A stretch of DNA of 35,582 bases from an uncultured bacterium. GTDB taxonomy: Bacteria; Krumholzibacteriota; Krumholzibacteriia; LZORAL124-64-63. The translations under genes and the position numbers were made by a program. Below the pieces are notes generated by a model that searched no databases, was not told where the DNA came from, and saw only the letters and a program-made list of their open reading frames with translations. Position 1 is the stretch's first letter. Each line of letters starts with the position of its first letter. Positions 3,029 to 27,121 of the stretch are shown here, piece after piece. The DNA lies in NCBI GenBank assembly GCA_903859215.1, contig CAIOLW010000122.1, positions 1-35,582 of the forward strand, written 5' to 3'.

Positions 3029-4066
3029 ATGGCCGACCTCAAGGATTGCCTCTTCCTGAAGAACCTGCGCGGCGAGCCGTGCGACCGCACGCCCATCTGG
3101 GTCATGCGCCAGGCGGGCCGCTACCTGCCCGAGTACATGGAGGTGCGGTCGAAGATCTCGTTCAACGACCTGTGCCGTTCGCCCGAGGCGGCCTGCGAGG
3201 TCACCATCCAGCCGATCCGGCGGTTCGGCTTCGATGCGGCGATCATGTTCAGCGACATCCTGACGCCGTTGGAAGCGATGGGCGCCCCGTTCGACTTCTC
3301 GCACGGCGGCCCCAAGCTGGAGCGGCCGCTGCGCGACGAGCGCGACATCCGCTCTCTGGAACGCTACCCGTCGCTCGAGGGTGTGCCGTACGTGGCCGAC
3401 GCCATCAAGCTGATGAAGAAGGAACTGGGCGACAAGACGCCGCTGATCGGCTTCGCCGGCTCGCCGTTCACGCTGGCCAGCTACCTGATCGAGGGCGGCG
3501 GCTCCAAGGAGTACGAGCACCTCAAGACGATGCTGTACTCGCGGCCCGAGCTGCTGCAGGAGCTGCTCGACCTGTTGGGCGACCAGGTGCTGGACTACCT
3601 GAAGATGCAGGTCGCGGCCGGCGTCGACGCCGTGCAGCTGTTCGACACCTGGGGCGGCATCCTGCACCCGGCCGACTACGAGAAGCACGTGCTGCCGGTG
3701 GTGCGCCGCATCATGGACGGCCTGAAGGACTCGGGCGTGCCGCGCATCTACTTCCTGAAGGGCAGCGCGCCGTACAACCACCTCATCTCGACCCTGGATG
3801 TCGAGTGCTTCGGGGTGGACTGGACGCAGGACCTGACGCGCGCCATCACTGAACTGCCGGGCCGCTGCGTGCAGGGCAACCTGGACCCGCTGGTGCTGTA
3901 CGGCAACCACGAGCAGGTGCGCTCGCGCGCGCTGGAGATCTGCCGCAAGGGCGAAAAGGCCCCCGGCCACGTGTTCAACCTGGGGCACGGCATCCTGCCG
4001 CATGCGCCGATCCCCGCGGTGGAGACCCTGGTCCGCACGGTCCAGGAATTCCGGCGCGGTCACTGA
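3029..4066 (+). CDS. hemE: Uroporphyrinogen decarboxylase
   Basis: HemE removes four acetate carboxyls from uroporphyrinogen III to give coproporphyrinogen III. The 345-residue protein has family length. Both family signatures are present: PIWVMRQAGRYLPEY (R27, R31) and GFAGSPFTLASYLIEGGGS. The substrate-binding aspartate is D76 in MFSDILTP. The C-terminal FNLGHGILPHAP motif carries the conserved histidine. ATG 3029 lies five bases after the hemL stop with GGAG at 3016-3019 inside the end of hemL, implying translational coupling. The open frame continues upstream through hemL, but that part is antisense-like and does not match the family. Confidence 0.97.
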   Translation: MADLKDCLFLKNLRGEPCDRTPIWVMRQAGRYLPEYMEVRSKISFNDLCRSPEAACEVTIQPIRRFGFDAAIMFSDILTPLEAMGAPFDFSHGGPKLERPLRDERDIRSLERYPSLEGVPYVADAIKLMKKELGDKTPLIGFAGSPFTLASYLIEGGGSKEYEHLKTMLYSRPELLQELLDLLGDQVLDYLKMQVAAGVDAVQLFDTWGGILHPADYEKHVLPVVRRIMDGLKDSGVPRIYFLKGSAPYNHLISTLDVECFGVDWTQDLTRAITELPGRCVQGNLDPLVLYGNHEQVRSRALEICRKGEKAPGHVFNLGHGILPHAPIPAVETLVRTVQEFRRGH

Positions 4067-12559: not shown

Positions 12560-13036
12560 TCAGGCCTCCGTGGTCGCCGGCGCCGCCGGTTTGCCTTCGC
12601 CCTCCGCGTCGAGCGCGGACAGCAACGTGATCCAGGGCAGCAGCGCGCATTTCACGCGTGCGGGAAACTTGCGGACGCCGGTCAGCACTTCGAGGTCGCC
12701 GGGATCCAGGTCGTCGGCCAACACGCCGTCGGCCGAATGCATCGCGGTGCGGAAGGCCTCGGCCAGCACGCGCACCTGCTCCGGCGTGCGGCCGGCCACC
12801 AGTTCGGCGAGGATGGAACTGCTCGCCGTGGCGATGGCGCAGCCGTGGCACTCCACGTGGGCGCCGGTGATGGCGCCGCCCGCGCAGGCCAGTTCCAGCA
12901 CGAGCTCGTCGCCGCACGAGGGGTTCTTGCCCTCGGCGCGCGCATCGGCCGGGCCCGGCAGCGGCTCGCGCCCCCGCGGGCTGCGGTGGTGGTCCAGGAT
13001 CACTTCCCGGTAGAGTTCGTCCATCCCTGTGTTCAT
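12560..13036 (-). CDS. sufU: SufU-type Fe-S assembly protein (sulfur acceptor)
   Basis: The 158-residue protein is in the NifU_N/IscU fold family. It has DELYREVILDHHRSPRG at the N-terminus, NPSCGDEL with the first metal-site cysteine and aspartate, HGCAIATASSSI with the second cysteine, and RVKCALLPW with the third. The roughly 20-residue insertion between the second and third cysteines and the lack of the IscU LPPVK motif identify SufU. SufU accepts persulfide from SufS through a zinc-ligand swap. ATG 13036 overlaps the sufS stop (ATGA, 13033-13036); ATG 13024 is an alternative that removes four residues. The C-terminus is an alanine/threonine-rich tail after the conserved domain. Confidence 0.93.
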   Translation of the reverse strand: MNTGMDELYREVILDHHRSPRGREPLPGPADARAEGKNPSCGDELVLELACAGGAITGAHVECHGCAIATASSSILAELVAGRTPEQVRVLAEAFRTAMHSADGVLADDLDPGDLEVLTGVRKFPARVKCALLPWITLLSALDAEGEGKPAAPATTEA

Positions 13037-14325
13037 GCCCCGAACACGCTCCTCGCGTAGCCGATGCCGTCGACCAGCGCGTCGATGTCGTCGTGCGAAT
13101 TGTACATGCCGAACGAGGCGCGGCTCGTCGCCACCACGCCCAGCCTGCGGTGCAGCGGCTGCGCGCAGTGGTGGCCGGCGCGCACGGCGATGCCCTGCGA
13201 ATCGAGCAGCTGCGCCATGTCGTGCGGATGCACCATCGGGTCGTGGAAGCTGACCAGGCCGCCGCGCTGCGCCGCGTCACGCGGGCCGAAGATCGTCAGG
13301 CCGCCCAGGCGCTCCAGGCGCTCGAGCGCGTAGCCGGTCAGCGAAATCTCGTGCTGCCGCAGGCGCTGCAGCGTGGCCTCGTCGATGGTGTCCAGCGCGG
13401 CGGGGAACGCCGCGGCCGCGCCCACGTTGGGCGTACCCGCCTCGAAGCGGTACGGGACGGCGGCCCAGGTGGCCGAGTCCATGGTCACCGTCTCGATCAT
13501 CTCGCCGCCGAACTCGACCGGCTGCAGGCGCTCCAGCGCCTCGGCCCCGCCAACCAGGAAACCCAGGCCCATCGGCCCGTAGGCCTTGTGGGCCGAGAAG
13601 ACCAGGAAGTCGGCGCCCAGCTCCGCGAAGGTGAAGGGCAGGTGCCCCACCGACTGCGCGGCGTCGACCACGACCAGCGCCCCGCGCCGGTGCGCGGCCG
13701 CCGCGATCTCGGCCACCGGGTTGATCGTGCCCAGCACGTTGGAGACGTGCGTCAGCGCCACCACGCGCGTACGCGGGGTCAGCAGCTGCGGCAGCCGCTC
13801 CAGGTCCAGTTCGCCGTCCGCGGTGACCGGCAGGTGCCGCAGCACCAGGCCCTCGCGGCGCGCGAGCTCGATCCACGGCACCAGGTTGGCGTGGTGCTCC
13901 ATCTCGGTGACGATGATCTCGTCGCCCGGCTTCAGCGACGAGCCGAGGCCGCCGGCGACCAGGTTCAGCGCCGACGTGGCGCCGCGCGTGACCACGACGC
14001 GCTCGCCGGGCACGCCCAGGAAGCGGCCGACGCGCGAACGGCACGCCTCGTACAGGTCCGTCGCCTCGACGCCCAATGTGTGCATGCCGCGATGCACGTT
14101 CGCGTTGTGCTCGCGGTAGTAGCGCGCCTCGGCGGCGATGACCGCGCCGGGCTTCTGCGTCGTGGCGGCGCTGTCCAGGTACACCAGCGGCCGCCCGTTG
14201 ACCTGCCGCTCCAGCAGCGGGAAGCGCTCGGAGAAGATGCGCCCGCAGCGCGAGCAGTCGCCCGCCTGGCCGTCGCAGGGCTCGACACCGGCAGGAGCCC
14301 GCAGGAAATCGCCGCGCGAGGTCAT
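13033..14325 (-). CDS. sufS: Cysteine desulfurase SufS (group II)
   Basis: SufS removes sulfur from cysteine to give alanine and an enzyme persulfide that feeds SufU. The 430-residue protein shows VYLDSAATTQKP, HRGMHTLGVEATD, the PLP lysine K247 in FLVFSAHKAYGPMGLG, and the persulfide cysteine C387 in VRAGHHCAQPLHRRLG, the group II arrangement. The frame stays open upstream through sufD, but ATG 14325 overlaps the sufD stop (ATGA) and has GGGAAGG upstream. Unusual is an N-terminal extension of about 28 residues before FSERFPLL, with three cysteines C17, C24 and C27 (CX6CX2C) that standard SufS proteins lack. It could be a small metal site or unstructured. Confidence 0.95.
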   Translation of the reverse strand: MTSRGDFLRAPAGVEPCDGQAGDCSRCGRIFSERFPLLERQVNGRPLVYLDSAATTQKPGAVIAAEARYYREHNANVHRGMHTLGVEATDLYEACRSRVGRFLGVPGERVVVTRGATSALNLVAGGLGSSLKPGDEIIVTEMEHHANLVPWIELARREGLVLRHLPVTADGELDLERLPQLLTPRTRVVALTHVSNVLGTINPVAEIAAAAHRRGALVVVDAAQSVGHLPFTFAELGADFLVFSAHKAYGPMGLGFLVGGAEALERLQPVEFGGEMIETVTMDSATWAAVPYRFEAGTPNVGAAAAFPAALDTIDEATLQRLRQHEISLTGYALERLERLGGLTIFGPRDAAQRGGLVSFHDPMVHPHDMAQLLDSQGIAVRAGHHCAQPLHRRLGVVATSRASFGMYNSHDDIDALVDGIGYARSVFGA

Positions 14326-15605
14326 GCCCCACCTTCCCTGATCGTCGCCAGCCGCGGGGCCGTGAACGACTCGACCATGGACCGCGCGTCGTCCGGCAGC
14401 CGGGCCAGCGTGTTCTCGAGGAACCCGCGCACGACCAGGCCCATCGCCTCGTGCGGGTCCAGGCCCCGGCTTCCAAGATAGAACAACTGCTCGGGATCCA
14501 CCGGCGCGATGGTCGCCCCGTGGCTGCAGCTGACTTCCTGGTTGTGGATCTCCAGTTCGGGGATGGCGTCGGCCCGCGCCCGTGACGACAGCAGCAGGTT
14601 GCGGTTCTCCTGGTACGCCTCGCAGTGCGTGGCGCGCTCCTCGATGCGGATCAGGCCGGTGTACGTCGACCGCGCCTGCTGCCCGGCGACCGCCTTGTAG
14701 TCGATGCGGCTGGTCGTATGTCCGGCCAGGTGGCGATGGCTGGTGTGCACGTCCGCGTGCTGTTTCCCGGCCACGAGCGCCACACCGACAATCTCGCTGT
14801 GCGCGCCGGCGCCGGCCAGGTCGGTCCCCAGTTCCAGCTTGGTTTCGTCGCCCCCGAACACGCCGCACACGGTCAGGATGTCGGCATCGGCCCCGGCCCG
14901 CGTCCGGACCGCGAGGTGGCCGCAGGTGCCCGGCTCCCAGACCTGCACCACGGCGTGGCGCACGCGCGCCCCGTCGGCCGCATTGATCACGGTGCTGCCC
15001 GCGACGCGCACGTCCGGCCCGCCGCCGGTATGATGTTCGACCAGCATTGCCTCGGCGCCGCGCCCGACATCCAGCCGCACCCGCGGCAACACGGCCGCCG
15101 CGGAGGCGTGCACGCGCACGTGGATCGGCCCGGCCAGCTTCACGCCGGCCGCCACCTGCAGGCCCACGCCCGTGTTCCAGGCCGCGTCGCCCAGTGCGGC
15201 GAAGAGGTCGCCCGCCGGCGCCCCGCCCGCGGCGAAGGGTTCGTCGGCCGCCGTGAACACCAGGGCGCCGACCGGCAGGTCCTCGGCCGTCTGCACGGCG
15301 GGCGCCTGCCCGGGCCACAGGTCGATGGTGACCGACGCTCCGGCCACGGGCGCCGCGGATGTCAAAACAATGTCGGTGGCCGGCGCGCCCGTCACGGACG
15401 CCGGCAGGAGCAGCGCCGGGTTCGTGAAGCGCCACAAGTGCCGCACGCGATCGGGCTCGGCGGCCTTCTCGTAGCGCGCCAGGGCCGCGAGCCGGCGCGA
15501 GACCTGCGCCGCGTCGCCGCCCAACGTCGCCGCCAGGGCCTTGAGCAATCCCTCGTCCAGCGCCGGCCGAGCCGACGCGATCACGGAAGTGGTGTCTTCA
15601 GCCAA
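14322..15605 (-). CDS. sufD: Fe-S cluster assembly protein SufD
   Basis: SufD is the beta-helix partner of SufB in the SufBC2D scaffold complex. The 427-residue protein has the SufBD core, with [20 protein letters not shown] and [20 protein letters not shown], then [10 protein letters not shown]. The histidine in SCSHGATI corresponds to the conserved SufD residue involved in cluster formation at the SufB-SufD interface. The N-terminal half is divergent, as usual. The start is TTG 15605, inside the end of sufB (eight-base overlap), with GGAGGG seven to eight bases upstream. The stop overlaps the sufS ATG. Gene order C-B-D-S-U-T is that of the minimal SUF operons of Gram-positive and many deep-branching bacteria. 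Confidence 0.94.
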
Positions 15606-17085
15606 CGGAACCCTCCATCTCCAGCTCGATCAGCCGGTTCAACTCGACGGCGTACTCCATCGGCAGTTCCTTCACGAACGGCTCGATGAAGCCGTTGACG
15701 ATCATCAGGCGCGCCTTGTCCGGGTCCAGGCCGCGGCTCTGCAGGTAGAACAGCTGCTCCTCGCCCACCTTCGAGACGCGGGCCTCGTGCTCGACGCGCA
15801 CGTCGGACTCGGCCACGTCCATCGTCGGGTAGGTGTCGGAGACGGCGTGCTCGCCGATCAGCAACGCATCGCACTCGACACTCGTCTTGCAGCCGTGTGC
15901 GCCGCGGTTGACCTTCACCAGGCCCCGGTAGCTGCTGCGGCCCTTGCCCTTGCTGATCGACTTGCTGACGATACGACTGGTCGTGTTCGGCGCCGCGTGG
16001 GTCATCTTCGCGCCCGCGTCCTGGTGCTGGCCGTTGCCGGCGAACGCGATCGACAGCACCTCGCCGTGCGCGCGCTCGCCCAGCAGCACGATCGCCGGGT
16101 ACTTCATCGTCAGCTTCGAGCCCAGATTGCCGTCCACCCACTCGACGACGGCGTCGGTGTGGGCGTGGGCGCGCTTGGTCACCAGGTTGTAGACGTTGGT
16201 CGACCAGTTCTGGATGGTCGTGTAGCGGATGTGGGCGCGATCCATCGCCACCAGTTCCACCACCGCCGAGTGCAGCGAGTCCGACGAGTACGTCGGCGCC
16301 GTGCAGCCTTCGATGTAGTGCACCGAGCTGTCCTCGTCGGCGATGATCAGCGTGCGCTCGAACTGCCCCATGTTCTCGGCGTTGATGCGGAAGTAGGCCT
16401 GCAGCGGGATGTCCACCTTCACGCCCTTGGGCACGTAGATGAACGAACCGCCCGACCACACCGCCGTATTCAGGGCCGAGAACTTGTTGTCGTTCGTCGG
16501 GATGATCTTCCCGAACCACTTGCGCACGATCTCGGGGTGCTCGCGCAGCGCCGAATCCATGTCCATGAAGATGACGCCCAGCTTCGTCAGGTCCTCGCGG
16601 ATGGAGTGGTAGACGACTTCGGACTCGTACTGCGCCGTGACGCCGGCCAGGAACTTGCGCTCGGCCTCGGGAATGCCCAGGCGGTCAAACGTCTTCTTGA
16701 TCTGCTCGGGAACATCGTTCCAGTCGCTGGCCTGCTCGCCCTGCGGCTTGATGTAGTAGTGGATGTTCTCGAAGTCGATGCCGTTCAGGCCCTCGGTGTC
16801 GCCCCAACGCGGCATCGGCTTGGCGCGAAAGGTGTCGAGCGCCGCGTGGCGGACTGCGCGCATCCAGTCCGGCTCGTTCTTCTTGCGCGAGATCATCTCC
16901 ACCACTTCATGGTTCAACCCCTTGGGGGCCTTCAGGAAGTAGTCTTCGGGGTCGTGGAAGCCGTACTTCGCCGTATAGTCGTCGTTGAGCGACGTCAGTT
17001 CGGCGCTGCGGGCGGCGCGGGCATCGGCCACAGCATTTGCGGCCACTGCGTTCGCGGTCCCGGACATTTCGTCGTCGCGGTTCAT
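15598..17085 (-). CDS. sufB: Fe-S cluster assembly scaffold SufB
   Basis: SufB is the main scaffold subunit on which SUF builds Fe-S clusters, with SufC as ATPase and SufD as partner. The 495-residue protein is strongly conserved: [69 protein letters not shown], and the C-terminal [20 protein letters not shown], which holds the cysteine acting in sulfur transfer and cluster binding. ATG 17085 overlaps the sufC stop (ATGA) and has GGGAG seven bases upstream. The first 25 residues are alanine-rich and not conserved. Confidence 0.97.
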
Positions 17086-17888
17086 GCGCGGCTCCCTTCG
17101 GGAATGGCAGCTTCTTCAGCCAGCCAGTCGTAGCCCCGCTCCTCGAGCGCGGTGACGAGTTCCATGCCGCCGGTGCGCACGAGGTGCCCGTTCATGAATA
17201 CGTGCACGACGTCCGGCTGCACATGGTTGAGGATGCGCTGGTAGTGCGTCACCAGCAGCAGGCCGTTGTCGGGCCCGCTCGCCAGGTTGATGCCGTCCGA
17301 CACGATCTTCAGCGCGTCGATGTCCAGGCCCGAGTCGGTCTCGTCCAGCAGGCTGAACGCCGGCTTGAGCAGCAGCATCTGCAGGATCTCCAGCTTCTTC
17401 TTCTCGCCGCCGGAGAACCCGTCGTTCAGGTAGCGCGTGATGAACGAGGGGTCGATGCTCATCGTCGCGAACGCCGCGTTCAGTTCCTGGCGGAAGGCGC
17501 GCACCGGGATCTCGGTCCCGCGGCGAGCTGCAAGCGAGGCGCGCAGGAAGTTGGCCACCGTCACGCCGGGCACTGCCACCGGATACTGGAAGCTGAGGAA
17601 CATCCCCCGCCGCGCCCGCATGTGCGGCTCCAGCGCGTCGACGCGCTCGCCGTTCAGCCAGATGTCGCCCTCGACGCGGTAGCTGGGATGGCCCATCAGG
17701 GCAGCGGCCAGGGTCGACTTGCCCGAACCGTTGGGGCCCATCAGCGCATGCTTCTCGCCCCGACGCACGGTCAGGTCGACGCCGCGCACGATCTGCTTCT
17801 CCGTGTCGCCGTCCTTGACGTAGACCTGCACGCCTCGGCAAGCGAAGACGACGGACGGGTGGTCGGGACTCAGCAGCTGGTCAGACAT
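17082..17888 (-). CDS. sufC: Fe-S cluster assembly ATPase SufC
   Basis: SufC is an ABC-type ATPase that drives the SufBD scaffold; despite the ABC fold it is soluble. The 268-residue protein shows Walker [10 protein letters not shown] (residues 51-59), the ABC signature [10 protein letters not shown], Walker [13 protein letters not shown], and a switch histidine in [28 protein letters not shown] is characteristic of SufC rather than of transporter ATPases. It is the first gene of the operon; ATG 17888 follows a leader of up to about 300 bases that is markedly AT-rich. GAGG about nine bases upstream is the ribosome-binding site. No Rrf2-type regulator gene (SufR/IscR) lies nearby. Confidence 0.97.
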
Positions 17889-19498: not shown

Positions 19499-20041
19499 TC
19501 AATCGCGCGGCAGGCTCCGCCACAGCGCCACCAGGAACACCACCAGGCACACACCCAGCACCCCGTGCACCGCCCCGTAGAGCACGAACCGGATCACCGG
19601 CTGCCCGCCCAGGAACGCCGCGTCCACCTGCGCCAGGTCGGTGGCGCCATGCCGCGCCGCCAGCAGGAAGTGGTAGCCCTTCACCAGCTGCAGCGCCGAC
19701 GTGGCCGCCGCCGCCGGCAGGTAGCCCCACAGCAGCCAGCGCAGCGCGCGCGGCCCCACCTCGCGGCCGCCCGCGCGCCGCGCCATCAGCAGCGCGCCCG
19801 CCAGCGCCAGCGGCATCAGCACGCCCATCGTGAAGACGTGGCCGTGCACCAGCGCCAGGTTAATGACCGCCTCCAGGTGCAGGCCAGCGCCCGCCGCCGA
19901 GAACGGCAGCTTGCGCGCCGACTCCTGGAACGAGATGCCCGTCAGCAGCCCCACCACCGCCATCACGATCGAAAAGCGCAGCAGCGCGCGCAGCGCCGCG
20001 CGGTAGCCCGCCGGCAGTTCCGCAGTCGAAGTCCCGCTCAT
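19499..20041 (-). CDS. Small four-helix membrane protein, DUF2871-like, last gene of the TPP-riboswitch operon
   Basis: The 180-residue protein has four predicted membrane segments (about residues 22-40, 60-86, 102-122 and 150-172) and histidines in or near them: H66 and H68 in ALVHGHVFTMGVLMPLAL, H124 in KGYHFLL and H159 in GAVHGVLG. The 'G...G..f.E' first helix, HGH at the start of helix two and overall plan resemble DUF2871-type membrane proteins of unknown function; this resemblance is from memory and untested. ATG 20041 overlaps the symporter stop (ATGA) with GGAG at 20047-20050, so it should be co-translated with the transporter. A TTG at 20053 is a weaker alternative. Its role may be linked to thiamine uptake, by context only. 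Confidence 0.72.
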   Translation of the reverse strand: MSGTSTAELPAGYRAALRALLRFSIVMAVVGLLTGISFQESARKLPFSAAGAGLHLEAVINLALVHGHVFTMGVLMPLALAGALLMARRAGGREVGPRALRWLLWGYLPAAAATSALQLVKGYHFLLAARHGATDLAQVDAAFLGGQPVIRFVLYGAVHGVLGVCLVVFLVALWRSLPRD

Positions 20042-21441
20042 CGTTCGCTCCAATCAGGTTCAGCCATCAGACAAGCCTCGCCGCCCGGCAGCCACGCCGG
20101 CGCCAGCACCAGCACCGAGACCAGCAGGCCCGGGAAGATCGCCTCGATGCCCAGCCACGGCCCGCCGTGCCCGAGCGCCAGCCAGCCCGCCGACACCAGG
20201 CCGGCCGCCGCCATCGCCACCGCCACCCGCCGCCCGCCCACGCGCCACCGCGTGTGCGCCAGCGCCAGCGGCAACAGCAGCACGGGCGTGCCCGCCGAGC
20301 CCAGCACCTTCCACAGCGTGATCACCGAGCCCGCGACGAGCGCCATCACGATCGTGACCGCCGCGGTCACGGCCAGGCTCCACTGCACCGCCCAGCGCGC
20401 CTGGTCCTCGGTGTGGCCTCGCCAGCGGCCGACGATGTCGCGCCCGAGCGTGACTGCCGCGATGAAGGCGTAGCTGTCGACGGTCGACATGATGGTCGCC
20501 AGCATGCCCACCGTAAAGACGCCCTGCAGGAAGCCCGGCAGCACGCGCGCCGACAACGCCGGGAAGGCCTGCACCGGGTCGGCGAGGTCGGGCAGCAGCG
20601 CCCGCGCATAGAGACCCGACGTGGTCGTCAGGAAGTCGAACAGGATCCAGAAGCCGATCGAGATGAGGATCCCGTTGCGCGCCACCTTCTCGTCGCGCGC
20701 GGCGTAGCAGCGCTGGAAGAAGGCGGGCTCGACCAGCGTCGACATCGCGATGAAGTACCACACGAACACGGCCTGCCAGCCCAGCCCGCCGTCCCAGACC
20801 AGGTGCGAAGGCGGCACGTGCGCGCTCAACCAGTGCCAGCCGCCGAACTTCAGGAAGCAGGCGGGGACCATCACCAGGAAGCCCAGGAACATCAGTACGA
20901 ACTGCACGCACTCGGTCTCCACCACGGCCTTGAGGCCCCCGCGGAACACGAACGCGACCGACAGCACGGTGCCCAGGGTCACCGTCACCCACAGCGGCCA
21001 ACCGGTGGCCAGTTGCAGCAATACGCCCAGCATCAGCACGTACGCCGCCGGCGCCGTCATCACGAACAGCGTCCCGGCGCCGATCAGGGCCGGCGCCCGT
21101 CCGTAGCGCTTCTCGAACAGGTCGGGGATCGACAGCATCCGCGTGCGCCGGGCGCGCGCCGCCAGCAGGAAGGCGAAGATGGCCGCGAAGATGTAGTAGG
21201 GAACGCCGAAGACCAGCCAGTTGCTGATGCCGTGGCGCCAGGTGTACTCGCCCACGCCGAGGATGCCGCCGTAGAACGTCGAGACCAGCGTCGCGACAAA
21301 GGCGGGCAGCGTCAGCCGACGGCCGGCCACCAGGTAGTCGACGGCGCCGGTTACGGGCCGGCGCAGCACGCGCAGCACGGCGTAGAGCAGGTAGAGCGCG
21401 TAGGCCACGGTGGCCCACGACGACATCAGCCCGGCGCCCAT
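20038..21441 (-). CDS. Sodium:solute symporter (SSS family), putative thiamine or precursor transporter
   Basis: The 467-residue protein has about 12-13 membrane segments and the text of the solute:sodium symporter family. VDYLVAGRRLTLPAFVATLV and STFYGGILGVGEYTWRHGIS are in the first helices, LSIPDLFEKRYG follows, and GMLATIMSTVDSYAFIAAVT contains the conserved Na+-site serines. Substrates of this family include proline, pantothenate, sugars and acetate. Here the gene lies directly after thiamine pyrophosphokinase (TAG then ATG with no gap) in an operon headed by a TPP riboswitch and a TonB receptor. Thiamine or a thiamine precursor is therefore the inferred cargo. In comparable Bacteroidetes operons the transporter is usually the unrelated PnuT. 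An SSS transporter linked to thiamine (ThiV) has been predicted in other bacteria; orthology is untested. Confidence 0.88.
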   Translation of the reverse strand: MGAGLMSSWATVAYALYLLYAVLRVLRRPVTGAVDYLVAGRRLTLPAFVATLVSTFYGGILGVGEYTWRHGISNWLVFGVPYYIFAAIFAFLLAARARRTRMLSIPDLFEKRYGRAPALIGAGTLFVMTAPAAYVLMLGVLLQLATGWPLWVTVTLGTVLSVAFVFRGGLKAVVETECVQFVLMFLGFLVMVPACFLKFGGWHWLSAHVPPSHLVWDGGLGWQAVFVWYFIAMSTLVEPAFFQRCYAARDEKVARNGILISIGFWILFDFLTTTSGLYARALLPDLADPVQAFPALSARVLPGFLQGVFTVGMLATIMSTVDSYAFIAAVTLGRDIVGRWRGHTEDQARWAVQWSLAVTAAVTIVMALVAGSVITLWKVLGSAGTPVLLLPLALAHTRWRVGGRRVAVAMAAAGLVSAGWLALGHGGPWLGIEAIFPGLLVSVLVLAPAWLPGGEACLMAEPDWSER

Positions 21442-22164
21442 CTATTCGGGACCGCGTTCGGATCGCGGCGGCTCGGGCTCGCGGTCGACCAGGGCCAGCA
21501 GTGACCCGCTGCCCACCGACAGCAGCAGCGGCGACAGGGTGACGATGTTGCTGATCGCCGTCGGGCCGAAGGCGCCCAGCGTCTCGTTCAGCAGCGGGAA
21601 CGCGGCGCCCTCGGTCGTCACGCCGCGCGCCTCGCCGCCCATGGGCAGCAGCGAGAAATGCGTGCCCGCGGGCAGGTCCCACGACTCGCGCGCGCCGCCA
21701 CCGACGCGCACGCCGTCGGCCAGGTAGCCCGAGATGCACATCCGCAGGCGGTCGCTGAACCGCTCCAGCAGCATGATGTTGAACAGCGTGTGGTCCAGAC
21801 GCCAGCCGGTGGCCCCCAGCAGCACGGCCTCCTCGTAGCCCTGCTCGGCCACGTAGAGCAGCGCCTTCTCGCTGTCGGTCGTGTAGGCGTCGTCCACCTG
21901 CAGGAACAGCGGCCCGCCGCGGCCGGCCAGCACGCGCCCGGCCAGCGAGTCGAAGTCGCCGATGACGACGTCCGGCATCCGCGGCAGGTGTTCGTAAGGG
22001 TGCCCGGCTGCGTCGGCGCAGACGAACAGGTCGGCGCCGTTCAGCCACCACGCCAACTGGTCCGGCGACGGCGGCGGCCCGTCGCACAGGATCACGGCGC
22101 GCGGCCCGCGCTTCTCGAAGAAGGGGCAGCCCGCGCCGCCGGCTTGCTGTCGTTCATCGAACAT
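21442..22164 (-). CDS. thiN: Thiamine pyrophosphokinase
   Basis: The enzyme transfers pyrophosphate from ATP to thiamine to form TPP, trapping imported thiamine. The 240-residue protein has RAVILCDGPPP near residue 22, the ADLFVCADAAG segment, PDVVIGDFDSL (about 65-74) with the catalytic aspartates, TTDSEKALLYVAEQG, and LLGATGWRLDHTLFNIMLL, all characteristic of the TPK catalytic domain. A C-terminal TPK-B1 domain follows (FSLLPMGGEARGVTTEGAAF and GPTAISNIV). The frame stays open for 58 residues upstream, but ATG 22164 shares one base with the receptor stop (TGATG) and begins the conserved part, so the start is set there. The last 20 residues are charged and variable. Confidence 0.92.
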   Translation of the reverse strand: MFDERQQAGGAGCPFFEKRGPRAVILCDGPPPSPDQLAWWLNGADLFVCADAAGHPYEHLPRMPDVVIGDFDSLAGRVLAGRGGPLFLQVDDAYTTDSEKALLYVAEQGYEEAVLLGATGWRLDHTLFNIMLLERFSDRLRMCISGYLADGVRVGGGARESWDLPAGTHFSLLPMGGEARGVTTEGAAFPLLNETLGAFGPTAISNIVTLSPLLLSVGSGSLLALVDREPEPPRSERGPE

Positions 22165-24470
22165 CAGAACCCGCAATCGATCCCGACGGCCACGTTGCGA
22201 CCGGCCGCCGGCGTTTTCCAGTTTTCCCCGTACCAGTAGCCCCAGGTCTCGTAGCGGGCATCGGCCAGGTTGCGAAGATGCGCGAACACGGAAACATCGC
22301 CCTCGTGGATGAACCCGGCCTTGCGCAGGTCCAGCCACAGCGATGCGTCGAGCGTCGTCCAGGAGTCGATGGTGCGGTCACCCAGTCCCGAGTTGTCCAG
22401 CCACTGGCGCCCGGTGCAGCGCACGCGAAGACGGCTGCGCACGGCCTCGCCCCACTGCCCGTCCCAGACCGCCATCGCCAGGTACTCCGGGAACAGGGCC
22501 AGCGGCTTGCCCGCATTATCGTACACCGCGCCGTCCCAATCATGGAAGATGAACTCAACAGCCTCGTCCCACGAGCGCGACGCCGTGACCGACACCACGT
22601 GCGACGCTCCCAACTGGGCCCGCGCACTGAACTCGAGTCCCCGGTGCCGGGTCCGGCCCGCGTTGCCGCGGATGCCGCTGCCGTCGTCCGAAACCCCGCC
22701 GTAGGGCACGATCTCGTTCGTGAAGTCCATCCAGTACCCGCCCAGCGACCAGGCCAGGCTCCTGCCGCGCCAGCCCAGGCCGAACTCGCGGTCGACCACG
22801 CGCTCGGGCTTGACCAGGGGGTCCGACCACTCGACGTACGCCACGCCGCCGTGGCCGTCGGAGACCTCGCGCCGCGACCCGAACAGCGGCTGCGCGCCCA
22901 GGTCGTCGCCGCCGGTCCAGGTGTCGAACAGCTCGCTGTCGGTGGGCTCGCGGTGGTTGATGCCCGCGTTCGCGTACAGCAGCAGCCGTCCGCCGGCCAC
23001 GGCGCCGGGCACCGCCCAGTCGAGCGCGCCCTTCGGATTGAAGAACCCGTCGGTGACCGTGTAGCGGTTCAGCCGGTCGCCCGCGAAGTTGCCGACCGCG
23101 TCCTGCGCGAACGTGTACCGCTTGCGCTGGTACTGCAGGTTCGCCGTCGCCTGCAGGCCGCCGCCCAGCCCCCAGCGCTCGTCCGCGTACAGGGACCACG
23201 CCCTCTTGTCGCCGGTGTATTCGTGGTAGCGCAACGGCGTGGTGAAGGCGTCGGGCGTGAAGCCGTCGGCCCACAGCACCTCGCCCCAGTGGTCCGAGTG
23301 GAACGTGTAGGCGTCGCCGCCCAGCAGCAGGCGCCCGCGGCCCTGTTCCCACACCAGCGACGGCACCCAGCCCGTGTGCCGCTTGCTGACCCACTTGCGG
23401 CGGATGAGGTCGACGTTGTCGCCGGTCGCGGGCCCGCCCGGCAGCAGGTCGAGCGCATAGTTCTCCGCCGACTGGCCCGCCTTGTAGTTCTCGTAGAAGC
23501 CGTCGCCGCGCACGTGGTACAGCCGGCTGACCAGCGTGAGCCGGTCGTTCACGAACCACGTGTGGTGCCACTGGTAGTGCGGCTGCCGGAAGTCGTCGAC
23601 CGCGTTGTGGTATGTCTCCATGTTCGCTGTGCGGTCCACCGCGAGGATCGACTCGGGCACCGCGTCCCACGCGTGGTGCGACAACTCGCGCCCCGTCTGC
23701 ACGCCCACCTGGTCGATGGTCCGCGCGGTGGTCCGCCGCGCACTCCACGCCACGGCCCAGCCCTCGTGCCCCGACCGGTCGCGGTAGCCGGCGGTCTCCT
23801 GCCGCGACAGGCGGATGGCCGTCGCCCAGCCGCCCGCGCCCCGCCCGCTGTCCCAGGCCAGCATCTGGCGCCGGTAGGCGTAGCTGCCGGTGTCCAGCGC
23901 CACGCGCGTGCCCGGCCGCTCGCCCGGCGGCGTGGTCACGATGTCGACCGTGCCGCCGATCGCGGTCATGCCGCCCACCGAGCCGGTCACCCCGCGCTGC
24001 AGTTGGATGTCCTGCACGTCGCTCGCCAGGTCGGGCATGTCGACCCACCACACCTGGTGGTCCTCCGGGTCGTTCAGCGGGATGCCGTCCAGCAGCACGC
24101 CGACGCGCCGCTGGTCGAAGCCGCGCACCTTCAAATAGGTGTAGCCCAGCCCGCCGCCGGCGTCCGAGTACGAGAACACGCCCGGCTGCGACTGCACCAG
24201 CAGCGGCAGGTCCTGGTCGGGCTCGCGCCGGGCCAGTTCCCCGGCCGTCACGTTCGAGACGTTCAGGCGATCGTCCTGCCCGTAGCGCGAGGCCGTGACC
24301 TCCACCCCGGGCGCGGAATAGACCGGCACCTTGCCGTGCCGGATCGCGCCGGTGTCAGGGATGGCCGGCGCTGGATGCGCAAGAGCGGCCGCGAAGCCCG
24401 GCGCCGCGCCGGCGGCGAACCATCCCGCGATGATCAGGAAGTGATGGGGAAACAGTCGATTGCGTCGCAT
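22164..24470 (-). CDS. TonB-dependent outer-membrane receptor, putative thiamine receptor
   Basis: The 768-residue protein has a signal peptide (MRRNRLFPHH then a hydrophobic stretch to about residue 30). A TonB-box-like EVTAS (about 57-61) is followed by a plug domain including LPLLVQSQPGVFSYSDAGGG, YLKVRGFDQRRVGVLLDGIP and MTAIGGTVDI. A beta-barrel runs to a C-terminal phenylalanine (VGIDCGF), the usual outer-membrane targeting end. No N-terminal signalling or carboxypeptidase-like domain is present. ATG 24470 has GGAGG at 24476-24480. It is the first gene after the TPP riboswitch, so thiamine or a derivative is the inferred ligand, as in the OMR1-type receptors predicted for Bacteroidetes. 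Ligand specificity cannot be read from the barrel. Confidence 0.93.
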   Translation of the reverse strand: MRRNRLFPHHFLIIAGWFAAGAAPGFAAALAHPAPAIPDTGAIRHGKVPVYSAPGVEVTASRYGQDDRLNVSNVTAGELARREPDQDLPLLVQSQPGVFSYSDAGGGLGYTYLKVRGFDQRRVGVLLDGIPLNDPEDHQVWWVDMPDLASDVQDIQLQRGVTGSVGGMTAIGGTVDIVTTPPGERPGTRVALDTGSYAYRRQMLAWDSGRGAGGWATAIRLSRQETAGYRDRSGHEGWAVAWSARRTTARTIDQVGVQTGRELSHHAWDAVPESILAVDRTANMETYHNAVDDFRQPHYQWHHTWFVNDRLTLVSRLYHVRGDGFYENYKAGQSAENYALDLLPGGPATGDNVDLIRRKWVSKRHTGWVPSLVWEQGRGRLLLGGDAYTFHSDHWGEVLWADGFTPDAFTTPLRYHEYTGDKRAWSLYADERWGLGGGLQATANLQYQRKRYTFAQDAVGNFAGDRLNRYTVTDGFFNPKGALDWAVPGAVAGGRLLLYANAGINHREPTDSELFDTWTGGDDLGAQPLFGSRREVSDGHGGVAYVEWSDPLVKPERVVDREFGLGWRGRSLAWSLGGYWMDFTNEIVPYGGVSDDGSGIRGNAGRTRHRGLEFSARAQLGASHVVSVTASRSWDEAVEFIFHDWDGAVYDNAGKPLALFPEYLAMAVWDGQWGEAVRSRLRVRCTGRQWLDNSGLGDRTIDSWTTLDASLWLDLRKAGFIHEGDVSVFAHLRNLADARYETWGYWYGENWKTPAAGRNVAVGIDCGF

Positions 24471-24514: not shown

Positions 24515-24551
24515 AAAAAAGAGGGCGCCCCCCGTTGTCGTGGAAGGCGCC
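24515..24551 (-). terminator. Intrinsic terminator forming the riboswitch expression platform
   Basis: On the minus strand GGCGCCTTCC (24551-24542) can pair with GGGGGGCGCC (24533-24524), giving ten pairs including two G-U, around an 8-base loop, followed by CTC and six T (24520-24515). It lies between the TPP aptamer and the receptor start, so TPP-dependent premature termination is the likely control. The 5' arm also overlaps a small alternative hairpin (GCCGC-AC-GCGGC), a possible competitor. Confidence 0.85.
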
Positions 24552-24560
24552 GCGTGCGGC

Positions 24561-24650
24561 CCGTTTCCCTACGCCGGCATGATCCGGTTCAGGTTCCAAG
24601 GGTCTTTCTCAGGCCAATCCGGTCCAGCCGGCTCGGCCACCCCCAACGGT
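24561..24650 (-). ncRNA. TPP riboswitch (THI element)
   Basis: Read on the minus strand, the highly conserved TPP aptamer blocks occur in order. GGGGGTGGCC comes first, then a variable P3a arm with CCGG/CCGG pairing, then CTGAGA (24612-24607), then ACCCTTGGAACCTGA, CCGGATCATGCCGGCG and TAGGGAA (to 24565). The terminal P1 helix is CCGTT (24649-24645) with AACGG (24565-24561). The match to the consensus is nearly perfect and cannot reasonably be anything else. Being 5' of receptor-thiN-symporter with a terminator immediately after, it should switch the operon off when TPP is abundant. Confidence 0.96.
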
Positions 24651-24657
24651 AGCCGCC

Positions 24658-24815: not shown

Positions 24816-25745
24816 ATGCCGAACCCCCGGCAGTGCATCCTCATCGCCGCCCTCAGCCTGGCCCTGTTCCTCGCGGACCGGGCGCCGGCGCAGCCCGCCC
24901 AGTCGCAACCCGCCCAGTCGCAGCCCGCCCAGTCGCCTGGCAACGGCGACTCGCCGCGCGACGACGTCGGGCGCGGCCACCTCGAGTTCGTCGTGGTGCC
25001 GGCCGGCACCTTCCTCATGGGCAGCCCCGACACCGAGTGGGGCAGCCGCAACGACGAGACCCGGCACCAGGTCACCATCACCCGTCCCTTCTACCTGGCC
25101 CGCTACGAGATCACCCAGGCGCAGTGGGCCGCGATCACCGGCAACAACCCCAGCTTCCTCTACAACTGCCCCGACTGCCCGGTCGAGAGCATCAGCTGGT
25201 TCGAGGCCGTCAACTTCTGCAACGCCCTGTCGCGCAAGATGGGCTTCCCCTGCGCCTACACGGTCCACGACACGCTGGTGACCTGGAACCGCGCCTCCGA
25301 CGGCCTGCGCCTGCCCACCGAGGCCGAGTGGGAGTACGCCTGCCGCGCCGGCACGACGACGGTGTTCAACACCGGCGATTGCCTCGGCACCGAACAGGCC
25401 AACTACCTGGGCTATGATCCGCAGAAGGGCTGCCCGAAGGGGATGTGGCGCGGCCAGGCGATCGAGGTCGGCAGCTTCGAACCCAACCAGTGGGACCTGC
25501 ACGACATGCACGGGAACATCAGCGAATGGTGCTGGGACCGACACGGCTTCTGGACGGCCGCCGCCGCGACCGATCCCAGCGGACCCGACCGCGGCGCCGA
25601 GCGCATCATCCGCGGCGGCAACTGGCACGAACTGGGCCGAAACTGCCGTTCCGCCGCGCGCCAGAAGGCCTTCCCCGACCAGCAGTTCACGCACGTCGGC
25701 CTGCGCCTGGCGCGCTCGATGCCGAAGGAAGCCGGGGGACGTTGA
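24816..25745 (+). CDS. Secreted SUMF1/FGE-fold protein
   Basis: The 309-residue protein has a Sec-type signal peptide (CILIAALSLALFLADRAPAQ), a short linker with a tandem PAQSQ repeat, and one FGE-sulfatase/SUMF1 domain (about 50-305). Domain motifs are FVVVPAGTFLMGSP, ITRPFYLARYEITQAQWAAI, ISWFEAVNFCNALS, LRLPTEAEWEYACRAGT, WDLHDMHGNISEWCWD and RIIRGGNWHELGRNCRSAAR. The fold covers formylglycine-generating enzyme, EgtB, PvdO and many proteins of unknown role. Authentic aerobic FGE has two cysteines in the last motif; here only the second is present, so FGE activity is doubtful. The protein is unusually cysteine-rich. ATG 24816 begins the signal peptide. A sulfatase follows with overlapping stop and start. 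Confidence 0.88.
   Translation: MPNPRQCILIAALSLALFLADRAPAQPAQSQPAQSQPAQSPGNGDSPRDDVGRGHLEFVVVPAGTFLMGSPDTEWGSRNDETRHQVTITRPFYLARYEITQAQWAAITGNNPSFLYNCPDCPVESISWFEAVNFCNALSRKMGFPCAYTVHDTLVTWNRASDGLRLPTEAEWEYACRAGTTTVFNTGDCLGTEQANYLGYDPQKGCPKGMWRGQAIEVGSFEPNQWDLHDMHGNISEWCWDRHGFWTAAAATDPSGPDRGAERIIRGGNWHELGRNCRSAARQKAFPDQQFTHVGLRLARSMPKEAGGR
24891..24935 (+). repeat. Three tandem 15-base repeats in the linker of the SUMF1-fold gene
   Basis: CAGCCCGCCCAGTCG occurs at 24891-24905, 24906-24920 (one base changed) and 24921-24935, encoding QPAQS three times directly after the signal peptide. The in-frame unit length means copy-number change would only alter linker length. Confidence 0.9.
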
Positions 25746-27121
25746 GCCCCCTGCCCCCCATCTCCCGGCGCGATGCGCTGCGCCTGCTCGGCGCCGGCGC
25801 CGCCACGCTCGCCCTGGCGGACCTGGCGGGCTGCGAACGCGGCGGCAACGCGCGTCAGCCGAATATCCTCATCATCCTGACGGACGACGTGCGCCACGAC
25901 GCCATGGGCTGCGCCGGCGACAAGCGCCTGGAAACCCCGAACCTGGACAAGCTGGCTGCCGACGGCGTGCGCTTCGCGAACGCGTTCGTCACCACCAGCC
26001 TGTGCAGCCCGTCGCGGGCCAGCATGCTCACCGGTTGCTACGCGCACCGGCACGGCGTGCACGACAACTTCTCGCGCGATCCCGAGGCCTCGTGCCCCAC
26101 CTTCGCCGAGGTCCTGCAGAAGGCCGGCTACGACACCGGCTACGTCGGCAAGTGGCACATGCTGCAGAGCGGCACGCCGCGCGCCGGCTTCGACCATTGG
26201 GTCAGCTTCACGGGACAGGGCGAGTACTTCCGCAACACGATGAACATCGACGGCAAGTGGAATCTGGTCATCAACTACGTCACCGACGAGCTGACCGACC
26301 ACGCCGTGAAGTTCATCGAGCGCGAACGCACGAAGCCGTTCCTGCTCGTGCTGGGCCACAAGGCCGCCCACGCCCCCTTCGTGCCCGCGCAACGGCACGC
26401 GCAGCGCTACGCGGGCGTCGACTTCACGCCGCGCGGCAGCCACGGCGGCGCCGGCCTGTCAGCGCAGCCGGACTGGGGCGGGCGCAACGAGGGCGCGCTG
26501 AAGCCGGAAGACCTGCGCAACTACCACCGCTGCCTGCTCGCGGTGGACGAGAGCGTGGGCCGGCTGGTCGAGTCGCTGAAGAAGCGCAAGCTGCTGGACG
26601 ACACCCTCATCATCTACACCAGCGACAACGGCCTGATGCTGGGCGAGCACGGCGGCCTGGGCGACAAGCGCGCCGCCTACGAGCCGTCCATCCGCGTGCC
26701 GATGCTGGTCCGCCACCCGAAATTGGCGCCGCGCGGCAAGGTCAACGAGGAGATGGTGCTCGGCATCGACCTGATGCCCGCGCTGTGCGAGGCCGCGGGC
26801 GTCCCCGCGCCCACCGATGTGCAGGGCCGCAGCTGGCTCCCGCTGCTCAAGGGCGGCAAGGGGCGCGAGGACTTCCTCTACGAATACTTCCGCGAGGAAG
26901 GCCCGGTCCCCACCTGCCTGGCCGTGCGCTCGCGCGACTGGAAGTACATCTCGTACCCCGAGGACGCGAACCTGCCGGCCGAGCTGTACGACCTGCGCGC
27001 CGACCCCGACGAAAGCGCCAACCTCGCGGGCAAGCCTGAACATGCCGCCACCCGGCAGCAGATGGCCGCGCGACTGGCGGCCCTGCTGCAGGAGACCGGC
27101 TACCGCCAGAACCGGGCCTGA
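25742..27121 (+). CDS. Tat-exported lipoprotein sulfatase (arylsulfatase family, cysteine type)
   Basis: The 459-residue protein is an alkaline-phosphatase-superfamily sulfatase. It has NILIILTDDVRHDAMGC with metal-binding aspartates, the sulfatase signature CSPSRASMLTG whose cysteine C88 would become formylglycine, VGKWHM, and TSDNGLMLGEHG with the second metal site. The N-terminus ISRRDALRLLG carries a twin-arginine motif (R9, R10) followed by a hydrophobic stretch and lipobox LAGC (C31), so Tat export as a lipoprotein is likely. The start is TTG 25742, overlapping the preceding stop, with GGGGGA just upstream. Formylglycine must be installed before Tat export, so a cytosolic maturase is needed. 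The sulfated substrate is unknown. Confidence 0.92.
   Translation: MSPLPPISRRDALRLLGAGAATLALADLAGCERGGNARQPNILIILTDDVRHDAMGCAGDKRLETPNLDKLAADGVRFANAFVTTSLCSPSRASMLTGCYAHRHGVHDNFSRDPEASCPTFAEVLQKAGYDTGYVGKWHMLQSGTPRAGFDHWVSFTGQGEYFRNTMNIDGKWNLVINYVTDELTDHAVKFIERERTKPFLLVLGHKAAHAPFVPAQRHAQRYAGVDFTPRGSHGGAGLSAQPDWGGRNEGALKPEDLRNYHRCLLAVDESVGRLVESLKKRKLLDDTLIIYTSDNGLMLGEHGGLGDKRAAYEPSIRVPMLVRHPKLAPRGKVNEEMVLGIDLMPALCEAAGVPAPTDVQGRSWLPLLKGGKGREDFLYEYFREEGPVPTCLAVRSRDWKYISYPEDANLPAELYDLRADPDESANLAGKPEHAATRQQMAARLAALLQETGYRQNRA

Follow-up and report, generated by a model that had tools for sequence, protein, structure and literature searches.

A sodium:solute symporter as the likely inner-membrane thiamine importer of TPP riboswitch-controlled operons in Krumholzibacteriota and several further phyla

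Introduction

The closest described counterpart of the operon considered here comes from Caldithrix abyssi, in which the locus Cabys_3975-3977, reported in 2017, combines a TPP riboswitch, a TonB receptor, a sodium-solute symporter and a thiamine pyrophosphokinase (TPK), and has been read as a thiamine transport locus (PMC5317091). In Bacteroidetes, OMthi, pnuT and tnr3 are found together in one operon (PMC5613172), which agrees with the statement in a first-pass annotation of the present locus that the inner-membrane partner in such operons is usually PnuT. Proteins of the sodium:solute symporter (SSS) family have also been linked to the TPP riboswitch, namely the ThiV of Rodionov and the SSSP of McRose. 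The ThiV of SAR11 is a likely carrier of the pyrimidine precursor HMP, the uptake of which has been measured in SAR11 cells, and signature residues of the ThiV/SSSP proteins have been given as Tyr78, Asp139 and Phe254 in SiaT numbering (PMC11452348). Of the relevant biosynthetic genes, SAR11 lacks thiC only, while thiE and thiG are retained (PMC10881298).

In the literature searched, no paper connects Krumholzibacteriota with thiamine. Here we describe an operon from this phylum in which, as we propose with considerable confidence, an SSS symporter would import thiamine by sodium symport as part of a TPP-controlled salvage pathway. While the gene arrangement itself is already known from C. abyssi (PMC5317091), the new elements are the symporter clade, how widely it is distributed, its association with a thiamine auxotrophy in which precursors are not salvaged, and its lack of the ThiV signature.

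A thiamine operon with a TPP riboswitch and an intrinsic terminator

The window, that is, the whole stretch of 35,582 nucleotides that was analyzed, belongs to a Krumholzibacteriota MAG whose assembly of 4.33 Mb in 391 contigs is rated 100% complete. On its minus strand lies a thiamine operon composed, in order, of a TPP riboswitch, an intrinsic terminator, and genes encoding a TonB receptor, a TPK and an SSS symporter. The aptamer (24549..24654), described at first pass as near-consensus, indeed matches the full length of model RF00059 at 67 bits (E 3e-11), above the gathering score of 54.3, and a search of the assembly revealed it to be the sole TPP riboswitch of the genome. Between the aptamer and the receptor gene is an intrinsic terminator, the probable expression platform (24515..24551, minus strand; GGCGCCTTCC...GGGGGGCGCC, then CTCTTTTTT), in which a hairpin with a 10-pair stem (24551-24524) is followed by a T-run; this feature is missing from the first-pass annotation.

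The three genes that had been placed after the aptamer were all recovered on the minus strand by Pfam and NCBIfam models. The first, preceded by GGAGG at its ATG, encodes a TonB-dependent outer-membrane receptor and probable thiamine receptor (22164..24470; Plug, 48.8 bits; TonB_dep_Rec_b-barrel, 92.3 bits). The second encodes a TPK of the thiN/tnr3 type (21442..22164), with Pfam scores of 64.1 for TPK_catalytic and 31.1 for TPK_B1_binding and an NCBIfam thi_PPkinase score of 94.4 bits, which exceeds the curated cut-off of 76.4 bits. The third encodes the proposed Na+/thiamine symporter, an SSS-family protein of 467 aa (20038..21441, stop included) that matches PF00474 with 103.2 bits against a gathering score of 22.8. 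The junctions read at first pass are likewise present in the sequence: the receptor stop overlaps the TPK start as TGATG, and the ATG of the SSS gene abuts the TAG stop of the TPK gene.

Several further ORFs surround the operon. A membrane-protein ORF of 179-184 aa (19499-20053, minus strand) adjoins the end of the SSS gene or runs into it; its match to DUF2871 is weak and sub-threshold (25.7 against a cut-off of 27.4), and among the related operon loci compared a homologue was seen in the same-genus locus L080 only. Divergent from the operon, ORFs at 24833-27121 (plus strand) resemble, by eye, a formylglycine-generating-enzyme-type protein and a sulfatase. Beyond an MFS gene, ORFs at 13000-17888 (minus strand) resemble, again by eye, SufB, SufC, SufD and a SufS-type desulfurase, and the SufC-like ORF, which served as a marker of synteny, shows 96% identity to its counterpart in L080.

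The symporter, its relatives and its sodium sites

Membership of the symporter in the SSS family (TC 2.A.21) is indicated by the PF00474 score, the predicted fold and the Na2 residues of cTMD8. In a maximum-likelihood tree of 75 rows, built without ThiV rows and with E. coli PutP, PanF, ActP and YidK, plasmid SSS proteins and a paralogue from the same genome as outgroups, the symporter and its relatives form a clade that is split from all outgroups by a long stem with 100/100 support. The tree sets the clade apart from PanF and PutP, two of the three proteins that the first-pass annotation had named for such a comparison; the order among the outgroups is not to be trusted because their branches are long. 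Scores of the window protein against curated NCBIfam models fall well below the cut-offs, both for PanF (TIGR02119, 73 bits against 328) and for PutP (TIGR02121, 43 bits against 515.5). Plasmid SSS matches from tblastn were also considered as ThiV references and rejected, those retrieved adjoining genes for agmatinase, an aminotransferase and other unrelated functions.

An AlphaFold2 model of the symporter is confident (pLDDT 93.1, pTM 0.91). A Foldseek comparison with the PDB ranks human CHT1 first and SGLT2 next, SiaT and NIS coming lower down, and TM is ~0.8 for the CHT1 and SGLT structures; by sequence profile, the top PDB match is a choline-transporter homologue, 9rws.

Residues were mapped by aligning SiaT (5nv9) with 62 clade members in three MAFFT modes, which were concordant. 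At Na2, in cTMD8, S319 is found in 62/62 and T320 in 61/62 members, aligned to S340 and T341 of PutP. At Na3, the position of SiaT D182 is occupied by D in 59/62 and corresponds to E177 in the window protein, with S319, D322 and S323 as the other Na3 residues. From the conservation of these side chains we infer that the symporter would be coupled to sodium. A thiamine importer driven by protons would have a precedent in CbrA, which shows that an SSS protein without its Na2 residues can be coupled to protons (PMC7918813); the present clade, however, retains S319 and T320 together with most residues of Na3, and proton coupling is for this reason considered unlikely.

Conservation within Krumholzibacteriota

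Within the phylum, a sample of 80 genomes was examined, in which presence of the symporter was called at E<1e-40. The symporter occurs in 38 of these genomes, with a single match in each. In the 31 genomes that hold symporter and riboswitch on one contig, both invariably lie on the same strand with the riboswitch 2921-3373 bases upstream, and a linkage maintained on one strand at a spacing of 2.9-3.4 kb in 31/31 genomes exceeds chance. Of the other seven, six have symporter and riboswitch on separate contigs, and in one no riboswitch was found. Two genomes of the same family from which the symporter is missing, G043 and G058, carry a riboswitch and receptor that run into the contig edge, such that the gap is explained by the contig ends.

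TPK is found in 37/38 symporter-bearing genomes and in 0/42 of the others, whereas ThiC is found in 0/38 and 26/42, respectively; as these counts follow family lines and are non-independent, the values of Fisher's test (2e-10 for ThiC, 4e-22 for TPK) overstate the evidence and serve as description only. A further search, covering 78/80 phylum genomes, gave no match above cut-off for ThiE (PF02581) in symporter-bearing genomes, no match for ThiB, and for the PnuT family only a partial match of 66 residues in one genome and no full-length PnuT. PnuT and ThiB were the thiamine carriers searched for, among a larger number of families that also includes ThiT and YkoEDC. ThiC, ThiE, full-length PnuT and ThiB are thus apparently absent, as judged by family searches of MAGs, in which absences may reflect assembly gaps.

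Spread to other phyla

A GTDB scan returned 209 relatives of the symporter, and the best 80 of these, which were kept, include members from Krumholzibacteriota, Zixibacteria, KSB1, Eisenbacteria, Fermentibacteria, Cloacimonetes, Calditrichaeota, Ignavibacterium and others. Operon order varies: TPP-receptor-TPK-SSS in Krumholzibacteriota, TPP-receptor-SSS without TPK in Zixibacteria and, in one Eisenbacteria locus (L156:1580-5478), TPP-SSS-receptor instead of TPP-receptor-SSS. Almost every related locus has a receptor gene immediately upstream. Using a covariance model made from 16 Rfam-confirmed aptamers, a same-strand TPP riboswitch was found in 53/80 of these best-scoring loci, and in 41/45 of those holding at least 3.7 kb upstream.

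Terminator-like hairpins lie within 150 nt past the aptamer in 24/53 related loci, against a background of 3.9% at random places in these loci, and the sequences of their stems differ from one locus to another. Together these observations suggest that the riboswitch works through transcription termination. In an FCB-group MAG (L162), tandem TPP aptamers (3275-3366 and 3423-3537, plus strand) are located upstream of a receptor-symporter operon.

Among 30 symporter-clade genomes tested from other lineages, ThiC was found in none and ThiE above cut-off was missing from 29, the remaining genome giving a fragmentary family match just at the cut-off. TPK is encoded in 20 of the 30, mostly away from the operon, while 10 show none.

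Five clade members (L122, L131, L132 and L166, with long loci, and L117) have no TPP riboswitch and stand among unrelated neighbors, which include a LacI regulator with a ZnuABC-like zinc transporter, an acyltransferase, RNase HII and rhamnose isomerase. Such contexts, as well as the diversity of SSS substrates, speak for a reading in which the symporter is a mere passenger that carries an unrelated small solute, with a different protein taking thiamine over the inner membrane. We regard this as distinctly improbable, since the linkage of riboswitch and receptor persists over many phyla and through differing operon orders, a conservation on which chance linkage of the symporter was rejected, and since PnuT and ThiB, the other carriers searched for in the phylum, are absent, save the one partial PnuT match. 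Moreover, the genomes of the five riboswitch-less members gave no ThiC or ThiE match in any, and four of the five encode TPK. Genome context over many phyla instead supports, as the most likely role of the SSS protein, the one assigned to it at first pass, namely the inner-membrane step in a chain of receptor, uptake and phosphorylation.

Evidence bearing on the substrate

Where TPK is present and neither ThiC nor ThiE is, only thiamine itself could be converted to TPP by a known route. Such cells would be able to use thiamine and not its precursors, which makes sodium-driven import of intact thiamine the most likely function of the symporter. The first-pass annotation had allowed for thiamine or a precursor; the apparent loss of ThiC and ThiE, with TPK mostly kept, supports the former and disfavors the latter. 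An identity with ThiV/SSSP, and with it the import of HMP or some similar vitamer that has been put forward for SAR11, might be suggested by the fact that ThiV likewise belongs to the SSS family and is controlled by a TPP riboswitch, in an organism for which HMP uptake has been measured (PMC11452348). HMP is, however, useless without ThiE, which is missing from the symporter-bearing genomes of the phylum and from almost all others tested, and which SAR11, having lost only thiC, retains along with thiG (PMC10881298). HMP import was rejected on the absence of ThiE and is held to be very unlikely.

The signature residues point in the same direction. Position 78 in SiaT numbering is F in 59/62 clade members and position 139 is Y in 61/62, with no acidic residue in the corresponding helix of the window protein; position 254, which is adjacent to the substrate, is E or D in 62/62, as compared with Q in PutP and L in PanF. 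With Y78, D139 and F254 replaced by F, Y and E/D under three alignment methods, the symporter is not ThiV/SSSP by the published signature, a reading to which its differing genomic partners also contribute. The first-pass annotation had held that a protein other than ThiV would represent a new transporter subfamily, and this is the outcome now favored: the clade is probably a so-far unrecognized branch of thiamine importers.

The conserved acid at position 254 fits a cationic substrate and could accommodate the positively charged thiazolium of thiamine. Choline transporters are among the nearest fold and sequence matches. Import of phosphorylated thiamine (TMP or TPP) in place of thiamine, which would meet the need of the cell and could begin at a TonB receptor, as these can take large solutes, is the least credible alternative, given that the TPK of the operon acts on unphosphorylated thiamine and that the conserved binding-site acid would be better matched to a positively charged substrate than to a phosphate.

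Proposed mechanism and significance

Import of intact thiamine with sodium can be placed in the following scheme. When TPP is scarce, the riboswitch would let transcription pass the intrinsic terminator; the TonB receptor would deliver thiamine to the periplasm, and the SSS protein would move it over the inner membrane with sodium. Conversion of thiamine to TPP by TPK would then trap the vitamin and close the feedback loop. Across several phyla, the SSS clade would serve intact thiamine, filling the place that PnuT holds in Bacteroidetes. It is on balance likely that thiamine-auxotrophic Krumholzibacteriota, Zixibacteria, KSB1, Eisenbacteria and other FCB-related phyla rely as a rule on a distinct SSS subfamily, apart from ThiV/SSSP, to carry intact thiamine over the inner membrane, in place of PnuT.

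If true, this would supply the inner-membrane step that has been missing from thiamine uptake in several uncultured phyla apparently unable to make the vitamin. Within a single transporter family, proteins that carry intact thiamine could then be told apart from those that carry its pyrimidine precursor. Dependency on B1 would become easier to read from metagenomes, including whether thiamine is needed or only HMP, and the symporter would serve as a marker of B1 dependence in bacteria of several further phyla about which little is known. Furthermore, a defined protein would be available in which E238, Y82 and D322 are candidate residues for thiamine recognition.

Comparison with known systems

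PanF and PutP have the SSS family and the Na2 residues in common with the symporter, but lie outside its clade and far from it by NCBIfam score. The choline transporters (SLC5A7/CHT1) provide the best fold match, are among the top PDB sequence matches and have a cationic substrate; identity is ~18%, and substrate and context differ. ThiV/SSSP, of SAR11, Methylobacillus and algae, shares with the present clade the SSS family, TPP-riboswitch control and a link to thiamine, but is tied to HMP use with thiE present, whereas the signature residues Y78, D139 and F254 are all absent from the clade described here.

The C. abyssi locus contains the same four elements as the window operon and was described in passing, from one genome, in a report without subfamily, residue or cross-phylum analysis (PMC5317091). 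The symporter clade includes a member from Calditrichaeota, L160. Finally, the Bacteroidetes OMthi-pnuT-tnr3 operon likewise joins a TPP-riboswitch-linked receptor, an inner-membrane carrier and a TPK, the carrier being PnuT in Bacteroidetes and an SSS protein in the window operon.
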